From NCBI RefSeq assembly GCF_026391055.1, contig NZ_JAPLET010000030.1, positions 124,001 to 188,000 of the forward strand: 64,000 nt of DNA, read 5' to 3'. Position numbers and translations under genes: made by a program. Position 1 is the stretch's first letter. Each line of letters opens with the position of its first letter. Source of the stretch: Spirosoma sp. (lineage in GTDB: Bacteria; Bacteroidota; Bacteroidia; Cytophagales; Spirosomataceae). This document shows, piece by piece, positions 22,241-35,399 of the stretch. The notes below the pieces were generated by a model. It saw only the letters and a program-made list of their open reading frames with translations. It was not told the DNA's origin and made no database searches.

Positions 22241-25200
22241 TTAAAATCCTACGTTAAGGCCGAACAGGATAGTTTTAGCCGATGGATAGCTGGCATAATC
22301 GAAGCCCTGGCTGCGGCTGTCCTGCCCAAACCGGTTTACCTCCGGGTCGTAGCCCGAGTAGCTGGTCCAGGTCAGGTAGTTCTGCGCCGTCACGTACACC
22401 CGCAGCGACTGGATTTTCAGCGTTTTGAGCGCCGACGCAGGCAGGTTATAAGCCAGTTGAATATTCTTCAGCCGGAGATAAGACCCATCCTCAATCTGTC
22501 GGGTAGACACGCGGTTGGCCGGACGGGTGGTTGAGGCCCGCGGTATGTCGGTATTGGTGTTGGTGGGTGTCCAACGGTTCAGCATGTCGCGGTCCTGGTT
22601 GGTCGTGGCGTTGAGGTATTCGAGTTCATACCGATTGGCATTCAGGATATTATTTCCGTATACCCCTTGCAGAAAAGCCGTCAGTTCAATGCCTTTGTAG
22701 GAAAAAGTGTTACTCAGCCCGCCCAGGAACTTGGGTTGCGCCCGACCGATAATGGTGCGGTCGTTATCGTCAATTTTCTTATCGCCGTTGATGTCGAGGT
22801 ACTTGCGGTCGCCGGGTTTGCGGGCCTGCGGGTCGGTGAGGGCGGCCAGTTCATCGGTGCTTTGGTAAAGGCCGTTCGTGACATAGCCGAAGAATGACCC
22901 CAGCGGCTCCCCTACCCGGATAATCCCCGAATTCAGTCCCTGTCCGATGTTAGCAACGCTACCGGCAAAAATCTGCGGAGCCCCGCCGATATCGAGCACC
23001 TTGTTCCGATTGAGGGCGAAGTTCAGATCGGTGCTCCACTTGAAAGCCCCGTCTAGGTTACGTGAAGAAATGCTGAGTTCAAACCCTTTGTTCTCCACTT
23101 TGCCAAGGTTTTTAAAGGCGCTTGAGAAGCCGGATGTACTGGGCACCGTCACGTTGAGCAGCAGGTCTTTGGTTCGTTTCAGGTACAGATCGGCCGTCAG
23201 GGTGATGCGGTTGTTGAGCAAACCGACGTCGACGCCCATATCGGCCTGGGTTGTCGTTTCCCACGACAGGTCGGGGTTGGCAATCTGATTGGGGCCTAAG
23301 CCCGTCGACACAGTGTTGCCGAACACGTAGTTTTGGGTGCCCAGCAGTGAGTAGGCCGGGTAATTGCCTACCCCATCCTGGTTACCCGTTGCGCCGTACG
23401 TAACCCGGAATTTAAGGTCGTTGATCACCCGATTATTTTTCAGGAATGCTTCTTCCGATACCCGCCAGGCCAAAGCTGCCGAGGGAAAATAACCGTACTG
23501 TTTGTTGGCCCCGAACCGCGACGAACCATCGCTCCGGAATGAGGCCGTGAGCAGGTATTTGTCTTTATAGCCGTAGTTGATCCGGGCCAGATAGGACTGT
23601 AATCCCCAGGTGCCAATGCTCGACGAGGGCGTGAGCGGCACCGAACCGGAACCCAGGTTGCTCGACCCGAGGTTATCGTTCACGAAGTTACGGGCCTGAG
23701 CCTGCGTATTTTCCGTACGATTTGCCTGTTGGGTATAGCCAAGCAATGCCGTTACGTTATGCACCGTATTGAACGTACGGGTGTAGGTCAGCAGGTTTTC
23801 GTTGAGCCAGGTCACTGACTGCCCGTTGAAGATCGAAGCGGCTCCCCCCTGCGCCAGCCCGCTGGACACCGAGCGGGGCAGGTACGAATCCTGCTTCTGC
23901 AATACCCCGTCTATACCCAGCAACACGCGTAGACTGAGTCCGTCAATAATCTGGTAGTCGCCGAATACATTGCCGAAGATGCGATACGCCGTGTTCCGGT
24001 TTTTATTGTCGCGGGCCAGTGCTACGGGGTTATCGGCGGTGAAGGCCAGCGCCGGGCTGGTCAGCAGATACGAGCCATCAGGATTGGTGACAGGCAGAAT
24101 GGGCGGAAATTGCAGGGCCGCAATGGTCACTAAACCCGCGCTGCCCAAGTCCCCATCCGTACGCGCCTGATTGGTGACCGTACGATTGATCGTCAGGCTA
24201 TTGCCGATCTTTATTTTGTTGGTCAGCTTGCGGTCCAGATTGATGCGAAAGGAATACCGGTCGAAATCGGAGTTGACGATGATGCCGCCCTGTTTAAAAT
24301 ACCCCCCGGCAATGGCGTACTGCGTTTTCTCGTCGCCACCGCTCATCGACAGCTGGTAGTTGGCAATGGGAGCCTGCCGGAAAATCTCGTCCTGCCAGTC
24401 GGTTCCTTCGCCAAAAGCGTTGACCTGCTCCTGGGTATACACCGCCGGCCGACCTTCGTTGGTGTTGGCATCGTTCACCAGTTGGGCATACTCCCGGCCA
24501 TTGAGAACGGGGTATTTCCGGCGAACCGTCTGGATGCCGTAATAGGTATCCAGATTGATGGTCGATTTGCCGGCCTTCCCCCGTTTGGTTGTGATGATCA
24601 CCACGCCATTCGAGCCGCGCGATCCATAAATAGCCGTCGACGAGGCATCTTTCAGGACCGAGATCGACTCGATATCGCTAGGGTTTAGCGTACTCAGCAC
24701 GTTAAAACTCGACCCGCTGCTGGCCCCGTCGTTCTTGAAGGGAATCCCGTCGATGACGTACAGCGGCTCGTTATCGCCCTGGATGGAGTTGCCACCCCGA
24801 ATCCGGATACTTGTCGTGCCACCCGGTGCGCCCGAGTTCTGAGTGATCTGCACCCCGGCGGCCCGGCCCTGCAAAGCCTGATCGAGGGAGGTAACAGCCA
24901 CCTTCCGGATTTCGTCGACGGGTACGGTCGATACGGCGCCCGTCAGGTCGCTTTTCTTTACCTGCCCGTAGCCCACGACTACCACTTCGTTGAGTGCTTT
25001 GGTATCGGGCAGCAACTGCACATTAATAATTGTCTGGTTCCGAACAGCCCGCTCCTGGCTGACGTAGCCGACAAAGCTGAACACCAGCGTAACGGCCGAT
25101 GCATCTGTTGGGATGCTTAGCTGGTAGCGCCCCTGGGCATCGGTCGTTGTGCCGCGCGAAGACCCTTTCACAACCACACTTACGCCCGGCAGGTCCTCTC

Positions 25201-25726
25201 CGGTTTCGCCCGTTACGCGCCCGGTTATCCGGACATCGGTCTGCAGTGCTTCCATCGGCTGCACCGTCGCCAGATTGGCAAGACCGGCCAGTGAAACAGA
25301 ACCTGTTCCGGCGGTCGTCATAGGAATTGGCGCAGGCAGGTTAATAATTGCGCGGCTGCTGTTTTTAGGCGGCAAAATCAGATACGCCCCCGACCGCAGT
25401 TTCTTGAACCTAAGTCCGTATGGTTTCAGAAGCAAATCGAGGTTTGTTTCGAGCCGGGCATTGAAGTTGAGCGGTTCGAGCGGGCTCAGGTGCCGCGAGA
25501 TAACCGATTCTTCGAACAGAATATCGACTCCATAATGCTCTTTTAGCTGCAATAGCGTTTGCTTAAGCGGCTGGCTGGTACCGATACCAGTGGTGTTCTT
25601 ACCGGGTTGTTTACTATCGGTATGCTGCGGAGGGCGGGCAAACGCCAGAGTTTGAGCGACAGTATGCCCATAGCCCACGCTAATCAACCAGCCGGTTGTC
25701 AGGAGGAGCGGTAACGATTTCTTCAT
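22241..25726 (-). CDS. SusC/RagA-type TonB-dependent transporter with N-terminal STN signalling domain
   Basis: A 1161-residue outer-membrane importer. The order is signal peptide, STN (secretin/TonB short N-terminal) domain at about 50-120 (LKQTLLQLKEHYGVDILFEE), CarboxypepD_reg-like domain at about 165-250 (RVTGETGEDLPGVSVVVKG), plug (LNEVVVVGYGQVKKSDLTGA, the SusC signature), and a 22-strand barrel ending AKTILFGLNVGF. The STN domain means it can signal to the FecR protein whose gene overlaps it by 4 nt. The ligand is not known. Confidence 0.96.
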   Translation of the reverse strand: MKKSLPLLLTTGWLISVGYGHTVAQTLAFARPPQHTDSKQPGKNTTGIGTSQPLKQTLLQLKEHYGVDILFEESVISRHLSPLEPLNFNARLETNLDLLLKPYGLRFKKLRSGAYLILPPKNSSRAIINLPAPIPMTTAGTGSVSLAGLANLATVQPMEALQTDVRITGRVTGETGEDLPGVSVVVKGSSRGTTTDAQGRYQLSIPTDASAVTLVFSFVGYVSQERAVRNQTIINVQLLPDTKALNEVVVVGYGQVKKSDLTGAVSTVPVDEIRKVAVTSLDQALQGRAAGVQITQNSGAPGGTTSIRIRGGNSIQGDNEPLYVIDGIPFKNDGASSGSSFNVLSTLNPSDIESISVLKDASSTAIYGSRGSNGVVIITTKRGKAGKSTINLDTYYGIQTVRRKYPVLNGREYAQLVNDANTNEGRPAVYTQEQVNAFGEGTDWQDEIFRQAPIANYQLSMSGGDEKTQYAIAGGYFKQGGIIVNSDFDRYSFRINLDRKLTNKIKIGNSLTINRTVTNQARTDGDLGSAGLVTIAALQFPPILPVTNPDGSYLLTSPALAFTADNPVALARDNKNRNTAYRIFGNVFGDYQIIDGLSLRVLLGIDGVLQKQDSYLPRSVSSGLAQGGAASIFNGQSVTWLNENLLTYTRTFNTVHNVTALLGYTQQANRTENTQAQARNFVNDNLGSSNLGSGSVPLTPSSSIGTWGLQSYLARINYGYKDKYLLTASFRSDGSSRFGANKQYGYFPSAALAWRVSEEAFLKNNRVINDLKFRVTYGATGNQDGVGNYPAYSLLGTQNYVFGNTVSTGLGPNQIANPDLSWETTTQADMGVDVGLLNNRITLTADLYLKRTKDLLLNVTVPSTSGFSSAFKNLGKVENKGFELSISSRNLDGAFKWSTDLNFALNRNKVLDIGGAPQIFAGSVANIGQGLNSGIIRVGEPLGSFFGYVTNGLYQSTDELAALTDPQARKPGDRKYLDINGDKKIDDNDRTIIGRAQPKFLGGLSNTFSYKGIELTAFLQGVYGNNILNANRYELEYLNATTNQDRDMLNRWTPTNTNTDIPRASTTRPANRVSTRQIEDGSYLRLKNIQLAYNLPASALKTLKIQSLRVYVTAQNYLTWTSYSGYDPEVNRFGQDSRSQGFDYASYPSAKTILFGLNVGF

Positions 25727-26742
25727 TGATTGAGCTGGGTTTCAAAAGGAGTTGAAAAAATGATAGACTGATCGCGGTGGCTAACCCGCAGGTTAAGCAG
25801 TTCGGCCAGGGCGTCGGCCAGTTCGTCCGACGAACCGGCGCGGATGGTACCCGTCAGGGTTCGTCGGGCGAGTGCGGGGTCTGAAAGCTGCACCGTTACG
25901 CCAAATACGGTCTGCATTTGAGAAGCCACTTCCCGTAGCGGAGTATCGTTAAAGCTAAACAGGCGGTATCGCCAGTGGGCAAACCGGGTGGTGTCGGCGC
26001 GGGCCTGTAACTGCAATGCTCCTTTATCGTCGAGCGTTACCCGGTCGCCGGGCTTCATCAGCAGATTCTGGGGTGGCTGATTGGCGGTAGCGTAGTGCAG
26101 GTTGACCTTACCCCGTTTCAGGACCACCTCAGCCAGGGTGGCCCGGCTGCGCACGGAGAATTCGGTCCCGAGCACTTCCACCGCCAGCCCGTTGGCGGCC
26201 TGCACCACAAAGGGCTGGTTGTTGGCCAGGTGCCGAATGTTGAAGACGGCATCGCCCGTTAGCACGACATCGCGGGAAAGCCAGCCATAGCCAACACGCG
26301 GCACCCGCAGCGATGAGTTGCTGTTAAGGGCAACCGTTGAGCCATCGGGCAAACTCACCGAACGGAGCTGGTGCGCTCCCGTCGTGATGGTGTTATACAG
26401 TATAGGCTCTCCGGCGAACCAGCCCCCAGCCAGCAGCAACAACGAAACCGAAGCAGCAACCAGCCAGCTACCCTGTTGCCAGAGCGTTCGTGGCTCAGCC
26501 GGTAGCTGACGCAACCGGAATGTCTGCTGCGGTACGGGCGAATCGAGTCGCTGGCGGAACTGGTCGAGATGATAGGGTACATCGGGGGCATATTGCGGGA
26601 AACTTCGCTCCCATTCGTCGAGCCACTGGAAATACGTTTCCCGGTTCCCGGCATCGGCCAGCCATTCACCAATTACTTTCTGCTGAACAGACGTGGCCTG
26701 CCCGGCAAAGTAGGTAAATAACAGTTCTTTAGTTGGTTTCAT
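25723..26742 (-). CDS. FecR-family anti-sigma/signal-transfer protein
   Basis: A 339-residue inner-membrane regulator: cytoplasmic N-terminal region, one membrane segment at about 92-110 (SWLVAASVSLLLLAGGWFA), a periplasmic FecR domain (VSLPDGSTVALNSNSSLRVP, LTGDAVFNIRHLANNQPFVVQ) and a DUF4974-type C-terminal domain (FSFNDTPLREVASQMQTVFG) that contacts the STN domain of the receptor. It overlaps the SusC start by 4 nt (ATGA) and follows the sigma gene by 24 bp, the standard trans-envelope arrangement. Confidence 0.95.
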   Translation of the reverse strand: MKPTKELLFTYFAGQATSVQQKVIGEWLADAGNRETYFQWLDEWERSFPQYAPDVPYHLDQFRQRLDSPVPQQTFRLRQLPAEPRTLWQQGSWLVAASVSLLLLAGGWFAGEPILYNTITTGAHQLRSVSLPDGSTVALNSNSSLRVPRVGYGWLSRDVVLTGDAVFNIRHLANNQPFVVQAANGLAVEVLGTEFSVRSRATLAEVVLKRGKVNLHYATANQPPQNLLMKPGDRVTLDDKGALQLQARADTTRFAHWRYRLFSFNDTPLREVASQMQTVFGVTVQLSDPALARRTLTGTIRAGSSDELADALAELLNLRVSHRDQSIIFSTPFETQLNQ

Positions 26743-26766
26743 GATGAGGTCGTCTATCGTTGAGCG

Positions 26767-27447
26767 TTAGGAGAAAATCGTCAGCAGAAGCAGCCCCCAG
26801 CTAATCAGCTTCTGTTGCCGGAGAAACTGCCGAACGGTGGAAATGGCCCGCAGCAGGTGATTTTCAACGGTTTTGGGCGACAGGCTCATCTCGGCGGCAA
26901 TTTCTTTGTAGGATTTCCCCTCGAATCGGCTCAACAGAAAAACCCGCTGCCGTTGGGGCGATAGCTGCTGAACGGCCTGCTCCAGCGCCCGGTACAGTTC
27001 ATCCTGCTGCAACAGACGGTCGGGCTGGGTAGCATCGAGATCGGCCGGGTCCAGGTCCTCGGGCAGTGTCTCCTGCCGGTTCAGCTCCCAGCGCAGGCAA
27101 TTGTAGGCCCGGTTTCGTACGGCCTGGTAGAGATAGGCCCGGTACGATCCCCTAACCTGCTTGTAAAGTTCTTTCTGGTAGAAGGTATAGAAGAGATCGG
27201 CTACTACGTCTTCGGCGGCTTGCCGGTCGTACATGAACCGAATAGCATGGCTGCAAAGGGGCGCAAAATATTGCCGGAAGAGCAGTTCACAACCTAGTTT
27301 AGGGTCATCGGCAAAGGCGTTGCGAATGAACAACTCGCTGTCAGCCGTCAGAGCGGGTGAAGCTTCGGTATCGCTCCGCAGCAAAGGCAATGACCCGGAC
27401 GGTGCCGGGCCCGGTACATGCCGGAATGGAAACGCGTTAGCTGACAT
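26767..27447 (-). CDS. ECF RNA polymerase sigma factor
   Basis: A 226-residue sigma-70 factor of the Bacteroidota FecI-like type. Region 2 is seen in LFRQYFAPLCSHAIRFMYDRQAAEDVVADLF, region 4 in LSPQRQRVFLLSRFEGKSYKEIAAEMSLSPKTVENHL. The N-terminal ~45 residues are extra and low-complexity, and the C-terminal tail (LISWGLLLLTIFS) is hydrophobic. It heads the operon sigma, FecR, SusC, SusD, FAD enzyme and probably drives it when the receptor signals. Confidence 0.94.
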   Translation of the reverse strand: MSANAFPFRHVPGPAPSGSLPLLRSDTEASPALTADSELFIRNAFADDPKLGCELLFRQYFAPLCSHAIRFMYDRQAAEDVVADLFYTFYQKELYKQVRGSYRAYLYQAVRNRAYNCLRWELNRQETLPEDLDPADLDATQPDRLLQQDELYRALEQAVQQLSPQRQRVFLLSRFEGKSYKEIAAEMSLSPKTVENHLLRAISTVRQFLRQQKLISWGLLLLTIFS

Positions 27448-27672: not shown

Positions 27673-28776
27673 CTAGTAGATGTACAGATTCTGCGGAATT
27701 TCGGGGGCACTCAGGTGCTGCCGAACCCAATGCAGGAACGCGTCGCGGTTCGCTTCCGTCAGCGTCCGAAGCTGAACCGCTCCGTAAAGCTTTTGAACGC
27801 CCACATCCGCTTTAGCATATATGTCGCAGTTGGCTACCAGCGGGCATTCGCTGATCACCTGCCTGATGGCGGCTGGGTATACATTGACTCCGGCTATCGA
27901 TACACTGTCATCTAACCGGCCCAGCACCCGTATCTCGGTAGCCGACACCCACTCCAGCCAGTCGGGGACGGGAAAGGATGCACCCGTATCGGTCCGGCAC
28001 ATTCTGACGGGCTCCTCCGGCAACCGGGTTACATAGGGAAACAACGTAAATGGCGCTTCGGACCGGTGCCGGTACCCAAGTCCACCGGTTTCGGATGAGC
28101 CGTAGATTTCCGTTAGGGACACGCTGGCGCTGATGAGCTGGTCGAACAGGCCCGGCGACATGGGCGCGGCTGATGATACCCCCCGACACGGCTGCGATTT
28201 TCCGGCCAGCAGAGACTGGTAGGCAAACTCCCAGGTAAAGGGGGTGCCTACCAACAGCGTATTGGCCGTTATGGCTGTTGCCGGGACATCCGCCAGCAAA
28301 CACAAAGGAACGTCCCAGAGCGCCGGAAGCAGGACGGTGTAGATAAACCCGTAAATATGATTGGCCGGTACCAGGCTGATCACCCTGTCGGGGCGCGGTA
28401 ACAACGTTGTCAGAAAGCGGGCTTCGTGCAGTAGCGACGCCATCGAATGCCGGACGGTCCGGGCGGCTCCGCTGGTACCTGACGTTCGAAACGTCAGGTA
28501 ATCGTCTACTTGTGAGCGGGCTCGCAGAATACAGTTCACCCAGTGGTCGAGGGTGGTTCCAGCCAGCAGGTAGTTCTCAACGGAAGTGTCAAAAACGCCG
28601 AAGAACTCGTTGAGGTAAGCAGCCAGCTCCATGCGGCTGATGGAGTCGAGCCCTACATCCCGATACAGGTCCAGCTCTGCCGAAACAGCCGATGGCAAAC
28701 CGGCATGGGGGTTTTGCAAAATCCGGCCCGCCGTATCGAGAATGATTCGCCGGACGTTAGCGGATGTCCAGATCAT
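27673..28776 (-). CDS. Acyl-carrier domain fused to an AMP-forming ligase; likely p-coumarate activation for photoactive yellow protein
   Basis: A 367-residue protein. Residues 1-85 are an acyl-carrier domain, with the phosphopantetheine serine in GLDSISRMEL (Ser45). Residues 90-367 are a short adenylate-forming domain: ATP loop TFRTSGTSG (95-103), YGSSETG (225-231), and hinge motif GRLDDSVSIAGVNVYP (286-301). The usual C-terminal catalytic lysine (GKI/LxR motif) is not seen, and the protein ends soon after. The ATGA overlap with the PYP gene and the length near 380 fit the known p-coumarate:CoA ligase family for PYP. The carrier domain suggests the coumaroyl group could ride on its own arm rather than on free CoA; that is inference. 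Confidence 0.85.
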   Translation of the reverse strand: MIWTSANVRRIILDTAGRILQNPHAGLPSAVSAELDLYRDVGLDSISRMELAAYLNEFFGVFDTSVENYLLAGTTLDHWVNCILRARSQVDDYLTFRTSGTSGAARTVRHSMASLLHEARFLTTLLPRPDRVISLVPANHIYGFIYTVLLPALWDVPLCLLADVPATAITANTLLVGTPFTWEFAYQSLLAGKSQPCRGVSSAAPMSPGLFDQLISASVSLTEIYGSSETGGLGYRHRSEAPFTLFPYVTRLPEEPVRMCRTDTGASFPVPDWLEWVSATEIRVLGRLDDSVSIAGVNVYPAAIRQVISECPLVANCDIYAKADVGVQKLYGAVQLRTLTEANRDAFLHWVRQHLSAPEIPQNLYIY

Positions 28777-29144
28777 GCCTTACGATTAACCAGAAAATAC
28801 TGATAACGGCTCTCCGGCGACTTGAGCAGCCTCAGACGGACCTTAGTTGGTGCCGTTACGTAGGATAGAATATAGTCCAGCTCTTCGTCGAGCGTTGGCT
28901 GGCCATATTTGGCGGCAACCATCTGATTGTTGGCGCAGGGGGCAATCTGAGTAAAATAGTACTTGCCCACAGCGTACTCTTTTGAGATACCTGTAATGTG
29001 GGATTCCGATTTACAGTACGCAACGACTAGCCCATCACGGCTCATACGAACCACCCCAAAAGGAGCGTCTTCAAGCTGCTCATCAGTCTGCTTTTCCAGC
29101 CAGTCGATGAGGTTTAAATCGGAAAAATGTACTGTCTGATTCAT
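28773..29144 (-). CDS. pyp: Photoactive yellow protein (PYP), blue-light PAS photoreceptor
   Basis: A 123-residue protein that aligns along its length with Halorhodospira halophila PYP. Chromophore-pocket residues are present with a +1 offset: Tyr43 (Tyr42), Glu47 (Glu46), Thr51 (Thr50) and Cys70 (Cys69, the p-coumaric acid attachment site) in IAPC. The end shows APTKVRLRLL and SRYQYFLVNRK. Arg52, which covers the chromophore in the model protein, is Ile53 here, and about four residues are missing between Cys70 and the APTKV strand. The gene follows a PAS histidine kinase by 37 bp and overlaps the ligase gene by 4 nt. Its likely job is a soluble blue-light sensor feeding the neighbouring kinase; that partner is inferred. 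Confidence 0.93.
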   Translation of the reverse strand: MNQTVHFSDLNLIDWLEKQTDEQLEDAPFGVVRMSRDGLVVAYCKSESHITGISKEYAVGKYYFTQIAPCANNQMVAAKYGQPTLDEELDYILSYVTAPTKVRLRLLKSPESRYQYFLVNRKA

Positions 29145-29181
29145 GGGTTGGCTATAAATTCAACTAATACCTGGTTAATCT

Positions 29182-32079
29182 TCAGCGAGATGAGTGATTT
29201 TGGAGCACAGGCAGGTAAACCGTGAAGGTAGCCCCTTCTCCGGGGCGGCTGGTAGCTGTCAGGGTGCCCTGATGATTTTCGACTACCTTCTGACAGATTG
29301 CCAGGCCGATTCCGGTACCTTCATACACCCCCCTACCATGCAATCGCTGAAAGACCTCAAAAATGCGGTCCAGGTACTTTTCGTCGAACCCAATACCATT
29401 GTCGTTTATATCGATCCGGTAATACTGCGGGCCATTCCCGTTCTTTTCGCCAACGATCCTTGTCAGCCTGAGCGTGGCGGGTAAATCCCTTCTTTTCACC
29501 GGCTGACCAGTAATCTGCACCTTTGGCGAGCTACCGGGCAACCGGTACTTAATGGCATTTGATAGCAGGTTCTGGAACAGCTGACGCAGTTGCCCTTTAT
29601 CGCCATGAACTACCGGCAACTCGTCCAGTTCGATGGCCGCGTTCGATTCCTGTATAGGTATGGTCAGGTCATCGAGGATTTGGGTCACTAAATCGGTCAG
29701 TGGCACAGGGCCGGTCTCAACCAGTTGGGTTGACAGCCGTGAATACGTCAGCAAATGCCGAATTAGTTCAGACATCCGCTGGGCCGATCCCTGCATTCGG
29801 TTAATCATATCCAGCCCAGTCAAATCAAGCACATGTCCATAACTGCTGGTCAGTACATCGCCAAAAGACCGAATTTTCCGCAACGGTTCCTGCAGGTCGT
29901 GGCTGGCAACATAAGCAAATTTCTGGAGGTTCTCATTACTCCGGCGCAGTTCATAGTTCGTTAGTTCCAGCGCCTGCTGCTGCTGTTTAAGGTCGGTAAC
30001 ATCCAGGAAAGTAAACAGTACCTGATTACCGTGACGAATCAGGGATGACTGAAACCAGCCCTGGATAACATCGCTAAAATAAGGTAACAGCCATTCTTTA
30101 CGCTGCCCGGTCTCGGCCACTTCTACCAATTCGGCAAACAGTTCATTAGCCGATTCGCTGGAAAAGAGCGACTTCACCCGATGACCGATCAGTTCCGCAT
30201 TCGAACGGCCGGTAAGTTGTCTTTGCTTTTCATTAACCAGTACAAGCGTAAAATCGATGATCTTTCCCGGCTTCCCATCCGTTGTCTCTTCCCGTATGGG
30301 TTCATACAGAACAATGCCCGTTGGTTGAGCGTCGATAACGAGTTTCATCAGGTCGGCCTGCTGTCGTTGAACGAGCTGCGCCTGATGGGCTTCCGTTACA
30401 TCCATGTACGTCATCAGCACCTTATCCGTCGAACGACCATCGCCTATGCGTATAAACTGCGCGTCGAACCATCCGCCGGCAGTCTCCCGGTAATAGGTAA
30501 AAACCATACGCTGTGTGCGGCCCGTTTCAATGGTTTCGCGAAGGGCCATCTCCAGTTCTGTACCTCGAAAACGGGGAAATAGCGTTAGCAAATCCTGTCC
30601 GATCAGGGCTTCGGCCGGGTAGCCTGTTACGTAGGTGTTCATGAGGTTTGTCATGCGGTATCGAAAATCGATCACCTTACGTTCGGGCGTATTGTCGCGA
30701 ACGGCTTCCCAGAGAACCAAACCCGCCGGGGTATTATCGCTGATTGACTTCAGCAGTTGCGCCTGATCCTGAAGCTGCTGTTCGGCCCGTTTCTGGAGGC
30801 TTTTATCCTGAATGGTCAGGATAACACCATCTTCGCGTTTCACGGCCGATATATCGCACCAGTCAGTCCTTTTCCCGTAATTAAACTCAGTTTCTGTGCG
30901 AAACGGCTGGCCGGTGATAACGACTTCAGCATAGTGATCGAGCAGATGCCGGAATTGGGGGAACAGTTCCAGCATCGTGCGGCCAAGCAGTTGATTGTCG
31001 GCACGACCAATTCTCTTCCGATGGGTGTCATTCTGCAATACGTACCGAAAGTCAACAATTCGACCGGTTGGATCACGTATAGCCTCCAGGACAATAATTG
31101 AATTCTGCGAACCGTTGAGCACCGAGTTGAGTAACTCAGCCTGGCGGTGATGCCCCAGTTGTGCCCGTTTCATGCCAGTAACTTCGGTCATCGCCAGAAT
31201 CAGCTGTTCGTCCTGAGGGGCCATCGACACCCGGTACCAGCCAGCATGTCTGCCCAGCGTAAACGGTAGCTCAAACTCCTGAACGATGCCTCCTTCAACG
31301 CCCGTTATACAGCGGCTAAGCAAACCCGACGCATTGGCGTCCAGGAAAACATCTGTCAGTTTTTTCCCAACTACCTTTATCGCCGACTGTCCCAGAATTT
31401 CCTCCAGCAGGGAATTAATCAGGCTAATCCGAAAATCGGGCGGGCGGTTATCCGGATCTTCTTCGGAGCGGATAACATCCAGTACGGCAATTCCCACCGG
31501 CACACCTTCCAGCACCCGCTTCAACAACTGAGCCTGTTGCCGGATTGCCTCTTTAGGTTTTCTTATATCAGTACTGTCAACATACGTAACCATAACCCCC
31601 TTGGGTACGCGAACGATTTTTACGTCCCGCCAGAGATCGTATTCGGGATAGTAATTCTCTTTCTCAACGGGTAGCCCGGTTTTGTAGACTTTTACGTAAT
31701 CGTTAAAAAGACCATTGATTTTCGTAGCCGGGTAGATCTCCCACAAAGTATGCCCCAGGAGTTCTTCGCGTTTGTACCCTCCCAGGCGTACACCCGCATC
31801 GTTGATCACGGCAAACTGGAAATCGACAACTTCACCCTGTTCGTCGTGTATAGCCTCGAAGACCGTAATACCGTTTACAGATGCATTGAAGGCCTGTTGC
31901 AGCACGCTGCTCAATCGGCTGGCTTCTGCATCGGCTTTGCTTTGCGTAATGTCATGGTAGGACACCACAACACTGTTCTCTTCCAGCCGCACGGCCGATA
32001 TATCGTACCAGACAGGTAATGACTCCCCTGGCTGTTCAAACTTAAATTCAAAACGAGACGGTTGCCCTGTCTCGATCAC
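29182..32079 (-). CDS. Multi-PAS sensor histidine kinase, main body (5' end frameshifted)
   Basis: This frame of 965 residues lacks the first part of the gene. It contains the end of PAS 1 and five further PAS units, each opening with a similar motif (LLKRVLEGVPVGIAVLD, LLNSVLNGSQNSIIVLEA, LLKSISDNTPAGLVLWEA, LMKLVIDAQPTGIVLYE). It closes with HisKA (FAYVASHDLQEPLRKIRS) and HATPase_c (DNGIGFDEKYLDRIFEVF, GTGIGLAICQKVVE). There is no membrane segment and no receiver domain, so it is a cytoplasmic kinase that must use a separate regulator. The GTG at 32079 overlaps the TGA of the 5' fragment (GTGA), so it could restart there, but the family sequence continues upstream in this frame (LHPQWAETNLEHQYRQ), showing that the start has been lost. 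Confidence 0.85.
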   Translation of the reverse strand: MIETGQPSRFEFKFEQPGESLPVWYDISAVRLEENSVVVSYHDITQSKADAEASRLSSVLQQAFNASVNGITVFEAIHDEQGEVVDFQFAVINDAGVRLGGYKREELLGHTLWEIYPATKINGLFNDYVKVYKTGLPVEKENYYPEYDLWRDVKIVRVPKGVMVTYVDSTDIRKPKEAIRQQAQLLKRVLEGVPVGIAVLDVIRSEEDPDNRPPDFRISLINSLLEEILGQSAIKVVGKKLTDVFLDANASGLLSRCITGVEGGIVQEFELPFTLGRHAGWYRVSMAPQDEQLILAMTEVTGMKRAQLGHHRQAELLNSVLNGSQNSIIVLEAIRDPTGRIVDFRYVLQNDTHRKRIGRADNQLLGRTMLELFPQFRHLLDHYAEVVITGQPFRTETEFNYGKRTDWCDISAVKREDGVILTIQDKSLQKRAEQQLQDQAQLLKSISDNTPAGLVLWEAVRDNTPERKVIDFRYRMTNLMNTYVTGYPAEALIGQDLLTLFPRFRGTELEMALRETIETGRTQRMVFTYYRETAGGWFDAQFIRIGDGRSTDKVLMTYMDVTEAHQAQLVQRQQADLMKLVIDAQPTGIVLYEPIREETTDGKPGKIIDFTLVLVNEKQRQLTGRSNAELIGHRVKSLFSSESANELFAELVEVAETGQRKEWLLPYFSDVIQGWFQSSLIRHGNQVLFTFLDVTDLKQQQQALELTNYELRRSNENLQKFAYVASHDLQEPLRKIRSFGDVLTSSYGHVLDLTGLDMINRMQGSAQRMSELIRHLLTYSRLSTQLVETGPVPLTDLVTQILDDLTIPIQESNAAIELDELPVVHGDKGQLRQLFQNLLSNAIKYRLPGSSPKVQITGQPVKRRDLPATLRLTRIVGEKNGNGPQYYRIDINDNGIGFDEKYLDRIFEVFQRLHGRGVYEGTGIGLAICQKVVENHQGTLTATSRPGEGATFTVYLPVLQNHSSR

Positions 32080-32315
32080 CTGCCGGTATTGATGCTCCAG
32101 ATTCGTTTCTGCCCACTGCGGATGCAGGTGGTACCAATTGCGTCTGCATACGGGCGGTTCAGGTTAGATTCGGCAACTGCGTTCGACAACATCAACTGCA
32201 AGCCTGTCAGCCTTCCGGCATCATCACGAACGCCTTTGTAGACCAGAACACCATTCTGTGATGCCTGCAAAACGCTTTGCACCAAAGCCGGGGAAGAGTG
32301 GTTTGTGACCGACAT
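32076..32315 (-). pseudogene. 5' fragment of the multi-PAS kinase, separated by a one-base frameshift
   Basis: This frame encodes the first 79 residues (MSVTNHSSPALVQSVLQASQNGVLVYKG), the beginning of PAS 1. It goes out of frame near 32125-32135, where GGTACCACC is followed by TGCATCC. Adding one C would restore IGTT-LHPQWAETNLEHQY and join it to the main body as a protein of about 1044 residues. So one base is missing, either truly in the genome or by sequencing error in a CC/CCC run. There is no slippery heptamer to suggest programmed frameshifting. The ATG at 32315 is 68 bp after the response regulator gene. Confidence 0.8.
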
Positions 32316-32383
32316 AACTTTTCAGACTAGCTGTTATAAATGTTGGATAGACTATCGATAGATATATCCATCTATCAGGCCGG

Positions 32384-32809
32384 TTAAGGTATATACTGAC
32401 TCTGGGTTAACCAGAAGTCGATTGCCCGGCGCATCATTTCGCTCACCTGATGATAGCTCTCGGGCTTTATTAAATAAGCATTGGCTCCCAGGTCGTATGC
32501 CCGACGCATATCTTTAGGGTTATCGGAGGTGCTGTACACGACTAACGGCAGGTAACAGGTGCGGCTGGTAGCCCGAACCTGCTGAATAACCTCAAAGCCA
32601 TTATGCCCCGGCAATTTAAGGTCTATCAGTACTAAATGAGGCAAAGGCGTACTTTGCCCCTGATAATTTCCCTGCTGAAGTAAGTAATCAATCGCTTCAC
32701 TACCACTGCTTAAGATTAAAAAACCAGGCGGGTGCTCCATGCGGCTGATAAGTCGCCTGAAGATATCAGCTTCGTCGGGGTTGTCTTCAATGTAAAGAAT
32801 ATCAAGCAT
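32384..32809 (-). CDS. Single-domain CheY/Rcp1-like response regulator
   Basis: A 141-residue stand-alone receiver: acidic pair in YIEDNPDE, phospho-acceptor Asp63 in LVLIDLKLPG, Ser/Thr near 93-95 (VVYSTSDN) and Lys115 in YLIKPESYH. The PHLVLIDLKLPGHNG and KDMRRAYDLGANAY motifs are those of Rcp1-type regulators that work with phytochrome kinases. It has no output domain, so it passes phosphate on or binds partners. It starts 5 bp after the phytochrome stop codon and precedes the PAS kinase, so both kinases may use it. Confidence 0.94.
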   Translation of the reverse strand: MLDILYIEDNPDEADIFRRLISRMEHPPGFLILSSGSEAIDYLLQQGNYQGQSTPLPHLVLIDLKLPGHNGFEVIQQVRATSRTCYLPLVVYSTSDNPKDMRRAYDLGANAYLIKPESYHQVSEMMRRAIDFWLTQSQYIP

Positions 32810-32814
32810 AAAAG

Positions 32815-35055
32815 TCAGGAAATGCGTCTGGGAAAAGATACATAAAAGGTTGTTGTCTGGTAAGGAACACTCTCAAACCAGACCTTGCCCTGGTGACGGC
32901 TCAGGATACGTTTAACGATGGCCAGTCCTACGCCATAGCCTTCGTAGCTTGCCGCCGAGTCGAGTCGCTGAAAAAGTTCAAATACTTTGCCCGCCTGTTT
33001 CATGTCAATGCCAATCCCATTATCCGTTACGGCGTAAATGACTTCCTGGTTGCTTTGCATACCTCTCACCGATATACGGGCCTCGGGCACCGGGCGGGTG
33101 TATTTGATGGCGTTGGAAAGGAGGTTACTGAACACCTGATTCACCATGGTCTGGTCGCCCTCCAGATCGGGTGTTTCGCCGATCTGGAGGGTAATGGTAC
33201 GAGCGGTTTCGCCCATCAGCAGCTCTTCGCGCAGTTGTTGGAGCATCTCGCTTATCGGCAACAATCGCCGGGTCAATCCCGAGCTGCCTACCTGCGAATA
33301 CTGCAGAATGTTGCGAATGAGCATACTCATCCGGTCACTGGCTTTCGTAATCCTGTCGAAGATGCCTCTGGCGGTCTCATCCATCTGATGGCCGTAATCT
33401 TCCTGGTAAATCTCAGTGTATCGCTTGATCGACGACAGGGGTGACCGCAAATCATGCGAAACCGTGTAGCTGAAGGCTTCCAGTTCTTCATTGGCCAGCC
33501 GCAACTGTTCGTTCAGCGAACGAATCTGGTTGGCTTTACCCGCTACGATCTGCAAAAGATCTTCGCGGAGTTTCAGGGCCAGCGCTACCTCCACCTGTTG
33601 CCAGGGCAGGGATTTATTCCGGACGGTCTGGGTCCATTTATCAAAGCTTTTACGCGGACTAAGTCGCACATCACCGGTGTTCGTTCGCTCGACCGGCTTA
33701 TCGGGATTCCCCCCCCAGGAAACCTGCTGTATCTGCTCGGGCTTAAACCAAAGCAGGTACTCATTCATCTGCCGCGACAGAACGACCATTAAAACCCCGG
33801 CGGCTTTGTCACGAAACCCTTCTGCCGGTGCATATAGATTAGGCAGTTGGTTGGTCTGGAATACACTTTCGGAGGTTGTATTCTTGAGCCAGTCGATCAG
33901 GGTTAGTATGTCGTCCGGTGCCGGGGTATCGCCCAGCAGATGCAGTTCTTCTTCGAATAGCAGAGCCGCGCCGGTGGCTTCATTCAGATCCAGGGCGGTA
34001 ATGGGATGTTTGGTTAGCCCCTGTACAACATCCCAATCGGCCGTCATCTGTTGATGGAGAGCCTGTTCATTGTCGTGCAGCCGTCCCGAAACCTCAGCGT
34101 CTTCATCGTCTTTACGGATTTCCAGTACCGTCGATAGTAGTTGGCTCACGAGTTTAATTGACTGCCGGGCGGGGTAGTCGATGAACCGGGGACCACTGTA
34201 ATGGTGACAGGCAATAAGGCCCCATAACTCAGAACGGTAGAGTAAGGAAATGCTCATACTCGCTCCAACGCCCATATTCGACAGATACTCGATGTGTACT
34301 GGTGAAACGGCGCGTAAGTTCGCATGTGTCAGGTCGAGCGGACGGTCATACTGCGCAACATTGACCGGCAAGATGGGTACCCGGGGCTCGTTAACATCGG
34401 CAACACCCCGAACCAGGTTAATTTTATAAAGCTCCCGCGCCTGCCGGGGAATGTCGGAAGCCGGATAGTGCAGCCCCAGAAACGGCACAAGATGTTCCTC
34501 GCGCGCTTCAGCAACTACCTCACCGTGCCAGTCCTCGCCGAATCGATAGATCATTACCCGGTCAAAACCCGTAATCTGTTTTATCTGCTGAGCCGTCTTT
34601 TCCAGCAGTTGAGCGAGGGTCTTACTCCGCTGGATATCGCTCATAGCCTGCGCAAGCAGCGTGTGCAGGGGTTTCGACAAGCCGCCATAAAGCTGGCTCG
34701 TCGGCTCCAGTTCTACAATCAGGGCTCCGTCGTGGCGGTGAACGATAGCCAGCCAATCGCGTCCGTGAAGTTTGAGGGGGTACGGATTAAAGGCCTCCGG
34801 TGTCCCGCTGCGCATAGCGATTACGAGCATGTCGTGAAGCAGACTGCCCGACAGATCGCCTAGCTGAAGGTTCACTAAAGGCTGACCAATAAGACTGTTT
34901 ACAGGTTGCCCAGCCAGTCCTTCTATGTTTTCGCTAACCTGCCAAATGGTGAACGCAACTGGATCAATGGCTATCAAAAAACCATATGACTGAATAAAGC
35001 CAGGCCATTGGATAGGCTCCTTTTCACAGTTGGTCAGATCAGGTGTTACTTTCAT
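32815..35055 (-). CDS. bphP: Bacteriophytochrome sensor histidine kinase
   Basis: A 746-residue red/far-red photoreceptor with PAS-GAF-PHY-HisKA-HATPase layout. The biliverdin-attachment Cys10 is in LTNCEKEPIQWPG. GAF contacts are Asp201 in PASDIPRQARELY, His254 in SPVHIEYLSNMGVGASMSIS, and His284/285 in ACHHYSGPR. The PHY tongue motif PRKSFDKW is at 467-474, the phospho-acceptor His534 in SYTVSHDLRSPLS, and ATP-lid motifs are VTDNGIGIDM and GYGVGLAIVKR. The usual PHG near the start is SYG (His to Tyr). It is first in the proposed light-sensing operon. No heme oxygenase gene is in the window. Confidence 0.96.
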   Translation of the reverse strand: MKVTPDLTNCEKEPIQWPGFIQSYGFLIAIDPVAFTIWQVSENIEGLAGQPVNSLIGQPLVNLQLGDLSGSLLHDMLVIAMRSGTPEAFNPYPLKLHGRDWLAIVHRHDGALIVELEPTSQLYGGLSKPLHTLLAQAMSDIQRSKTLAQLLEKTAQQIKQITGFDRVMIYRFGEDWHGEVVAEAREEHLVPFLGLHYPASDIPRQARELYKINLVRGVADVNEPRVPILPVNVAQYDRPLDLTHANLRAVSPVHIEYLSNMGVGASMSISLLYRSELWGLIACHHYSGPRFIDYPARQSIKLVSQLLSTVLEIRKDDEDAEVSGRLHDNEQALHQQMTADWDVVQGLTKHPITALDLNEATGAALLFEEELHLLGDTPAPDDILTLIDWLKNTTSESVFQTNQLPNLYAPAEGFRDKAAGVLMVVLSRQMNEYLLWFKPEQIQQVSWGGNPDKPVERTNTGDVRLSPRKSFDKWTQTVRNKSLPWQQVEVALALKLREDLLQIVAGKANQIRSLNEQLRLANEELEAFSYTVSHDLRSPLSSIKRYTEIYQEDYGHQMDETARGIFDRITKASDRMSMLIRNILQYSQVGSSGLTRRLLPISEMLQQLREELLMGETARTITLQIGETPDLEGDQTMVNQVFSNLLSNAIKYTRPVPEARISVRGMQSNQEVIYAVTDNGIGIDMKQAGKVFELFQRLDSAASYEGYGVGLAIVKRILSRHQGKVWFESVPYQTTTFYVSFPRRIS

Positions 35056-35341: not shown

Positions 35342-35399
35342 AGGAAGTTGTTTGAGTGAATCGCTTTGGCCACAAAGCGATTCACTCAAACAACTTCCT
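35342..35399. terminator. 27-bp perfect hairpin overlapping the recombinase stop codon (family B)
   Basis: Arms 35342-35368 and 35373-35399 pair perfectly around a GCCA loop. The right arm covers two of the three bases of the recombinase stop codon (35398-35400), so the hairpin starts within the gene. Its outer sequence matches the repeat at 3731-3803. It lies between two minus-strand units and most likely ends the recombinase transcript. Confidence 0.75.

Follow-up and report, generated by a model that had tools for sequence, protein, structure and literature searches.

Can a blue-light receptor and a red-light receptor serve one two-component output without being fused into a single protein? 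The question is raised by a gene block in a 64,000-nucleotide stretch of Spirosoma sp. DNA (the window: RefSeq assembly GCF_026391055.1, contig NZ_JAPLET010000030.1, here C27, positions 124001–188000; genome of 7.98 Mb in 31 contigs, 99.96% complete). On the minus strand, a bacteriophytochrome gene (bphP) is followed by a stand-alone receiver (rec), a multi-PAS histidine kinase, a photoactive yellow protein gene (pyp, product PYP) and a PYP-type coumarate ligase. The block is real and recurs in relatives; judged from sequence, a two-colour wiring of its products is a good hypothesis in which the sharing of the receiver is plausible. The features of the block are:

32815..35055, minus strand: bphP, bacteriophytochrome histidine kinase of 746 aa, PAS_2-GAF-PHY-HisKA-HATPase_c (Pfam domains, pocket residues)
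32384..32809, minus strand: rec, stand-alone receiver (Response_reg) of 141 aa without an output domain (Pfam)
32076..32315, minus strand: 5′ piece of the kinase, 79 codons from the ATG at 32315, first PAS (frame and alignment to the relative L037)
29182..32079, minus strand: multi-PAS histidine kinase, open frame of 965 aa from a GTG, with several PAS, HisKA and HATPase_c (open reading frame, Pfam)
28773..29144, minus strand: pyp, photoactive yellow protein homolog of 123 aa (TIGR02373, PDB matches, pocket residues)
27673..28776, minus strand: PYP-type coumarate ligase of 367 aa, a short ANL enzyme, AMP-binding and PP-binding (Pfam, TIGR02372, alignment)
28504..28776, minus strand: acyl-carrier-like domain of the ligase, residues 1–91, with Ser45 in GLDSI (profile, predicted model, alignment)

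The domains that an earlier note on this DNA had claimed for bphP, rec, the kinase and the ligase were all found by Pfam, and both of the chromophore pockets that it had read as complete were confirmed. For bphP these residues are Cys10, Asp201, His254, Arg468 and Ser470; with the PAS-GAF-PHY-HisKA-HATPase architecture, the N-terminal Cys and the PASDIP, His and PRxSF residues, they identify a bacteriophytochrome. Against the NCBIfam BphP equivalog NF041576 the protein scored 310 bits, below the 1040-bit cut-off, and that equivalog is presumably narrower than the bacteriophytochrome family. Rec contains Asp63, which we take to be the phospho-acceptor, and Lys115, whose role we likewise assume. 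The PYP pocket (Tyr43, Glu47, Thr51, Cys70) was recovered by alignment, with Cys70, Tyr43 and Glu47 invariant in 16 chosen PYPs. The protein had no Pfam match at E 0.001 and scored 68.3 bits over nearly the whole of TIGR02373, below its 143-bit equivalog cut-off; because all 33 sequences that it matched in the PDB (best E 1.5e-13) were PYPs, the Ppr PYP domain or PYP-derived tags, it was filed as a divergent PYP homolog, not a TIGR02373 equivalog. The closest named PYP was that of Spirosoma fluviale (88% identity, in a search that may omit very near genomes). Compared with Halorhodospira halophila PYP, Arg52 is replaced by Ile and Met100 by Thr; dark recovery is slowed in Met100 variants of PYP, and by analogy the two substitutions would predict slow dark recovery here. 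Thr at site 50 accompanies absorption at about 445 nm in six such PYPs (Dohmen et al., 2025; PMC12826048).

Gene spacing was as the earlier note had given it for the 5-bp bphP-rec gap, the 37-bp kinase-pyp gap and the 4-nt overlap of pyp and the ligase, but not for a 68-bp gap ahead of the kinase. That gap presupposed an intact kinase from the ATG at 32315, which was rejected, as this frame closes after 79 codons. In the closest relative (locus L037, genome G191) the kinase is a single open frame of 1060 aa, to which the window kinase is 94% identical; relative to it, 10 bp are missing in the first PAS and one additional base stands just ahead of the ATG at 32315. At 32079 the starting GTG of the long frame shares bases with the TGA that ends the 79-codon piece (GTGA), which could permit coupled translation of the two pieces, and the 10-bp deletion could be an assembly error.

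PYP was found in 16 of 222 genomes of the family (20 genes at 18 loci). At 15 of these loci a multi-PAS kinase lies directly upstream on the same strand, bearing out the tie between PYP and a PAS kinase that the note had proposed; the kinase is convergent in L040 and L042, and at L053 a different PAS-kinase lies directly downstream of pyp. A ligase is present at 16 of the 18 (not found at L051 and L052; broken and cut by a contig end at L047). The gene order that the note had suggested seeking among relatives recurs, as bphP-rec-kinase-pyp, at six pyp loci, five of them with the ligase: the window, L037, L038 (G188), L041 (G213), L048 (G159) and L051 (G197). PYP and phytochrome are thus separate genes in one recurrent block, the non-fused arrangement that had been claimed. 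The L051 block lacks the ligase and has a frame break in its kinase, and at L048 the kinase reaches just 530 aa. A record labelled Flavobacterium sp. SUN052 (L015), outside the family set, carries the kinase, pyp, a small PAS gene and the ligase without bphP. The idea that such PYPs are widespread in the order was not borne out: a profile search of 390 drawn genomes matched 29, eight of them strongly (E <1e-56; all Spirosomaceae), and the matches in the other 21 were partial and PAS-like, with E no better than 7.7e-7 and almost always in longer proteins. Tandem pyp pairs occur in two genomes (L043 and L045, in G111 and G113), and G197 has three separate pyp loci (L039, L051, L052).

A tree was built of 26 phytochromes, all 21 of the PYP-bearing genomes and five picked from 104 other genomes, those of L041 and L066 entering only as one in-frame piece each. 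It resolved two lineages. Type 1 comprises 16 copies, each followed by rec and a heme oxygenase, with an opposite-strand PAS kinase beyond in 13. Type 2 comprises all six operon copies and four others (G197, G112, G114, G110) at loci that read bphP-rec-heme oxygenase-PAS kinase on one strand without PYP. PAS kinases thus accompany phytochrome and receiver without PYP, at these four loci and at the 13 type-1 loci. The window bphP is of type 2 (EPIQWPG), distinct from the second copy of the genome on contig C11, whose own rec has diverged (49% identity to the block rec). At each of the 26 loci read, rec comes after bphP (a broken copy in the case of L066), and it therefore belongs first of all to bphP. 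A phytochrome-receiver-PAS kinase unit thus exists without PYP, and a kinase-pyp-ligase unit without phytochrome; the window joins both. All six operon phytochromes lie to the same side of a branch, but its support is 42/56; five make up a firm clade, that of L048 is not firmly placed, and bphP may have joined pyp once or twice.

A phytochrome match was obtained in 119 of the 222 family genomes, 113 of which have one copy. At least two copies occur in six genomes (G000, G188, G191, G197, G213, G083), the first five of which carry one in a pyp block (Fisher p 6e-6, uncorrected for kinship). Phytochromes were present in 15 of 16 PYP genomes versus 104 of 206 others (p 5e-4), a co-occurrence given little weight because phytochromes are common in the genus anyway. 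In G213 both the operon phytochrome (L041) and the second phytochrome (L066) are frame-broken, which may reflect sequencing errors in a draft.

In the kinase tree, which excludes the L053 kinases, 15 of 18 PYP-linked kinases form a clade (support 96/94) apart from five kinases of phytochrome loci without PYP. Those of L049 and L050, which are pyp loci without bphP, group in a firm clade with the bphP blocks other than L048; loss of bphP at L049 and L050 or its gain elsewhere would fit this tree.

The ligase scored 208.1 bits against TIGR02372, below the equivalog cut-off of 334.7 and by far the best in the genome (next, 42 bits); matches to the model that fall short of the cut-off also occur in 12 of 14 control genomes. 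It carries TSGTSG, YGSSETGG and GRLDD, which we take to be the P-loop, YGSSE and GRxDD motifs of ANL enzymes, with Arg in place of the P-loop-closing Lys of many such enzymes, at a position that varies in relatives. The C-terminal (A10) lysine of ANL enzymes serves adenylation. Its loop is absent from all 16 aligned Spirosomaceae-type ligases, each of which ends with Tyr at the same column, and present in 6/6 proteobacterial ones; the L017 ligase, with a lysine-bearing tail at its end, was not classed. Because the loss is common to all 16, it is old. As an internal control, six of eight other TIGR02372-matching stretches of the genome (six genes) reach model position 385 and two match the P-loop part only; the window ligase stops at 373. 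Pfam AMP-binding_C was found in 7 of 19 PYP ligases and not in that of the window. The alignment excluded the frame-broken, contig-end-cut L047 ligase; ligase matches occurred in 17 plasmid records, seven of which were fetched and six aligned, L085 (Niveispirillum, unannotated) being left out. Lys322 is invariant in 13 Spirosomaceae-type ligases and is not among the invariants of 19 rows that include proteobacterial sequences; it might stand in for the lost A10 lysine. The ratio of nonsynonymous to synonymous substitution rates (dN/dS) of the ligase gene is 0.09 versus both L037 and L038, which indicates that the protein is in use.

The N-terminal part of the ligase matched Pfam PP-binding at 22.3 bits (cut-off 20.8), and a match at E ≤0.05 was obtained for 13 of the 19 PYP ligases that were scanned. 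Its profile gave 18 matches to solved structures at E ≤0.01 (best E 6e-4), of which 17 are carrier proteins (acyl carrier proteins or what we take to be carrier subunits of complex I) and the other is PigH. A predicted model of the domain (pLDDT 88) gave template modeling scores of 0.50–0.72, normalized on the query, among the 50 best PDB matches listed, which are acyl carrier proteins or what we take to be chains of complexes holding one; these matches are weak (E 5e-3 to 5e-2; 0/268 below 0.001). By motif and model, Ser45 lies at the start of helix II of a helical bundle, in a GxDSL-type motif. The attachment Ser is conserved in 23/23 aligned PYP ligases (16 Spirosomaceae-type, L017 and six proteobacterial), the preceding Asp being Asn in five. 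Ser45 is a putative phosphopantetheine attachment site, and the PYP ligase family as a whole may possess a carrier domain. What the earlier note had called the chromophore ligase is a PYP-type ligase gene, but with its carrier domain and without the A10 loop it is not a plain coenzyme A (CoA) ligase.

The only heme oxygenase found by PF01126 in the window genome adjoins the second phytochrome; in L048, whose order is bphP-rec-heme oxygenase-kinase-pyp-ligase, a single block encodes enzymes for the two chromophores. No aromatic amino acid lyase (tyrosine, phenylalanine or histidine ammonia-lyase, TAL, PAL or HAL; PF00221) was found in the window genome or in 13 of the 15 other PYP genomes. The exceptions are at L056, where a hutI-like neighbour leads us to presume a HAL-like enzyme, and at L055, whose lyase we take to resemble flexirubin-type TALs. 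FlxA, a proven flexirubin-type TAL, is noted to have a HAL-like motif 1 (PMC3992019). The plain reading is that p-coumarate is supplied from outside the cell, and uptake is named as a possibility by Dohmen et al. (PMC12826048). A bolder conjecture, which we think unlikely, is that the PYP Cys is loaded from a coumaroyl thioester on the phosphopantetheine arm of the ligase rather than from free coumaroyl-CoA, the adenylation lysine having been given up in Spirosomaceae, p-coumarate not being home-made and the receptor working only with an outside supply of p-coumarate or an activated form, from a source such as plant matter. If this is true, a blue sensor with an environmental chromophore is coupled in one operon to a phytochrome with a home-made one.

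A small PAS-like protein of 135–139 aa is encoded after pyp at ten loci, nine in the family (L039, L041–L046, L049, L052; for example L046:9404–9823) and L015. Its gene overlaps pyp by 1 or 4 nt and the ligase gene, where present, by 4 nt. Pfam matches were weak, 2/3 tested proteins matching PAS_8 below cut-off. The kinase that directly follows pyp in L053 has an N-terminal domain homologous to all ten proteins (best E 3e-25), and for eight of the ten BLAST gave a weaker match to the N-terminus of the PAS-kinase beside pyp in L017 (best E 2e-13). Remnants of the gene were seen in L050, L051 and L040, and none was found at the window locus, L037, L038, L047 or L048. We read the protein as a possible PYP-kinase adaptor lost in the lineage of the window. 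L017:8977–14810, from a Bacteroidia metagenome-assembled genome, has pyp, a PAS-kinase, a receiver-kinase, the ligase and an aromatic amino acid lyase in a row, and may represent an older form.

Taken together, gene content and order suggest a two-colour light-sensing operon of unfused photoreceptors, with blue and red inputs meeting on the receiver, a reading in which we have middling confidence. Using biliverdin from the heme oxygenase encoded next to the second phytochrome, BphP would sense red/far-red light and phosphorylate or dephosphorylate the adjoining receiver, a very likely step. The carrier-fused ligase would arm PYP with p-coumarate for blue sensing, and PYP would dock on the multi-PAS kinase encoded just upstream, a likely contact that would alter kinase activity. 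The PAS kinase would probably act on the same receiver as BphP; we regard this part as about an even bet. Receivers of the Rcp1/CheY type act by protein contact, and the phosphorylated receiver, having no output domain, would do so too. We infer co-transcription, PYP-kinase contact, the shared receiver, the light responses and the direction of regulation from the sequences.

Several observations weigh against this reading. No bphP and no close rec relative was found alongside pyp at 12 of the 18 loci (L052 has two other receivers close to pyp, about 31% identical to rec), so PYP and its kinase can do without either. Three PYP-linked kinases (L040, L042 and L048) fall outside the PYP-kinase clade, the last of them from one of the six blocks that include bphP. 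Frames are interrupted too: that of the kinase at the 5′ end in this assembly and close to it in L051, and that of bphP in L041. With no PF00221 lyase found in the window genome and the A10 loop absent from the ligase, it is uncertain that holo-PYP forms, and scans for sigma-70 promoters and terminators stayed at shuffle level and were given no weight. The chief rival, somewhat unlikely in our judgement, is that one transcript carries two insulated channels, BphP signalling to its own receiver only and PYP with the PAS kinase to an unlinked receiver. The constancy with which rec tracks bphP (26/26) favours it, as do the 12 pyp loci without rec and the divergence of the rec of the second phytochrome. 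It sits less well with the PAS kinase that follows bphP-rec-heme oxygenase on the same strand at four PYP-less loci, and with the opposite-strand PAS kinase beyond rec and heme oxygenase in 13/16 type-1 loci. The earlier note's proposal of a shared receiver finds partial support: at the four PYP-less loci rec does have bphP on one side and a PAS kinase of the same strand on the other, but it is missing from most pyp loci and follows bphP at all 26 phytochrome loci read.

The broken kinase, the failure to find an adaptor gene beside pyp here, and the missing lyase could instead signal a system in decay in this strain, with PYP, lacking TAL and the A10 loop, mostly in the apo form. We consider this improbable. 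Across the five genes, with the kinase represented by its 3′ part, dN/dS versus L037 is 0.06–0.11, like the neighbouring control ppx (0.09), and versus L038 it is 0.04–0.09 for four genes (controls, 0.03 and 0.06), although such a comparison with a relative is blind to a recent gene break; the A10 loss is shared by 16/16 Spirosomaceae-type ligases and hence old, and the long kinase frame is open over 965 codons. That two unrelated light systems became neighbours by chance is highly improbable: about 0.03 pyp-bphP pairs within 4 kb would be expected and six were seen, and the block is kept at 65–96% bphP identity while the window flanks (xer, ppx, sigma factor) were not found beside it in L041, L048 and L051. 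The six pairs are not independent, because five belong to one phytochrome clade, and this leaves few separate events.

The preferred two-colour operon shares parts with known systems. A stand-alone receiver right after a phytochrome kinase is the arrangement of phytochrome-receiver pairs, which we take to be of the Cph1/Rcp1 type; here a PAS kinase and PYP follow, and the heme oxygenase of 20 other loci is absent. In PYP-phytochrome-histidine kinase fusions such as Ppr of Rhodospirillum centenum (PMC12826048), PYP, phytochrome and kinase likewise serve one two-component output, whereas here PYP is a separate 123-aa protein and two kinases, a receiver and a ligase are encoded in the block without fusion. 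Kinases beside clade A PYPs have been described (Xing et al., 2022; PMC9664959). The 2025 survey reports 17 operons with a HisKA/HATPase kinase, preferentially upstream, in a set of 113 pyp operons; these have a single-domain PYP, an upstream kinase and usually a downstream p-coumarate ligase, as here, but no pyp operon with a phytochrome homolog was seen there (PMC12826048), and the present block, with phytochrome and receiver, supplies one. The H. halophila operon of pyp, ligase and TAL (PMC12826048) also has the ligase after pyp; the window block lacks a TAL, the genome gave no PF00221 match, and the ligase has no A10 loop. The word Spirosoma is absent from the main texts of PMC12826048 and PMC9664959, and among the titles and abstracts listed, mostly from journals outside subscription, none reported this block or a carrier domain in a PYP ligase. 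The abstract of the survey calls the relay of the PYP signal an important gap (PMC12826048). With PYP, kinase, phytochrome and receiver as separate proteins, the pathway could be rebuilt piece by piece in vitro, asking whether blue and red add or oppose on one receiver. A functional carrier domain would mean that the chromophore is loaded by a route other than the accepted one, and p-coumarate from outside would make blue-light sensing conditional on habitat.

After the block, on the same strand, 22241–27447 encodes an extracytoplasmic function (ECF) sigma factor, a FecR-type anti-sigma factor and a 1161-aa receptor, presumably SusC-like; these genes were not found adjoining the block in L038 and are retained in L037. 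One further feature lies ahead of bphP:

35347..35394, no strand assigned: 48-bp inverted repeat with 20 pairs (terminator/hairpin scan)

It is situated just beyond the stop of a xer recombinase gene and is terminator-like on the plus strand only, in a scan that was overall at shuffle level; it is a possible boundary of the block.

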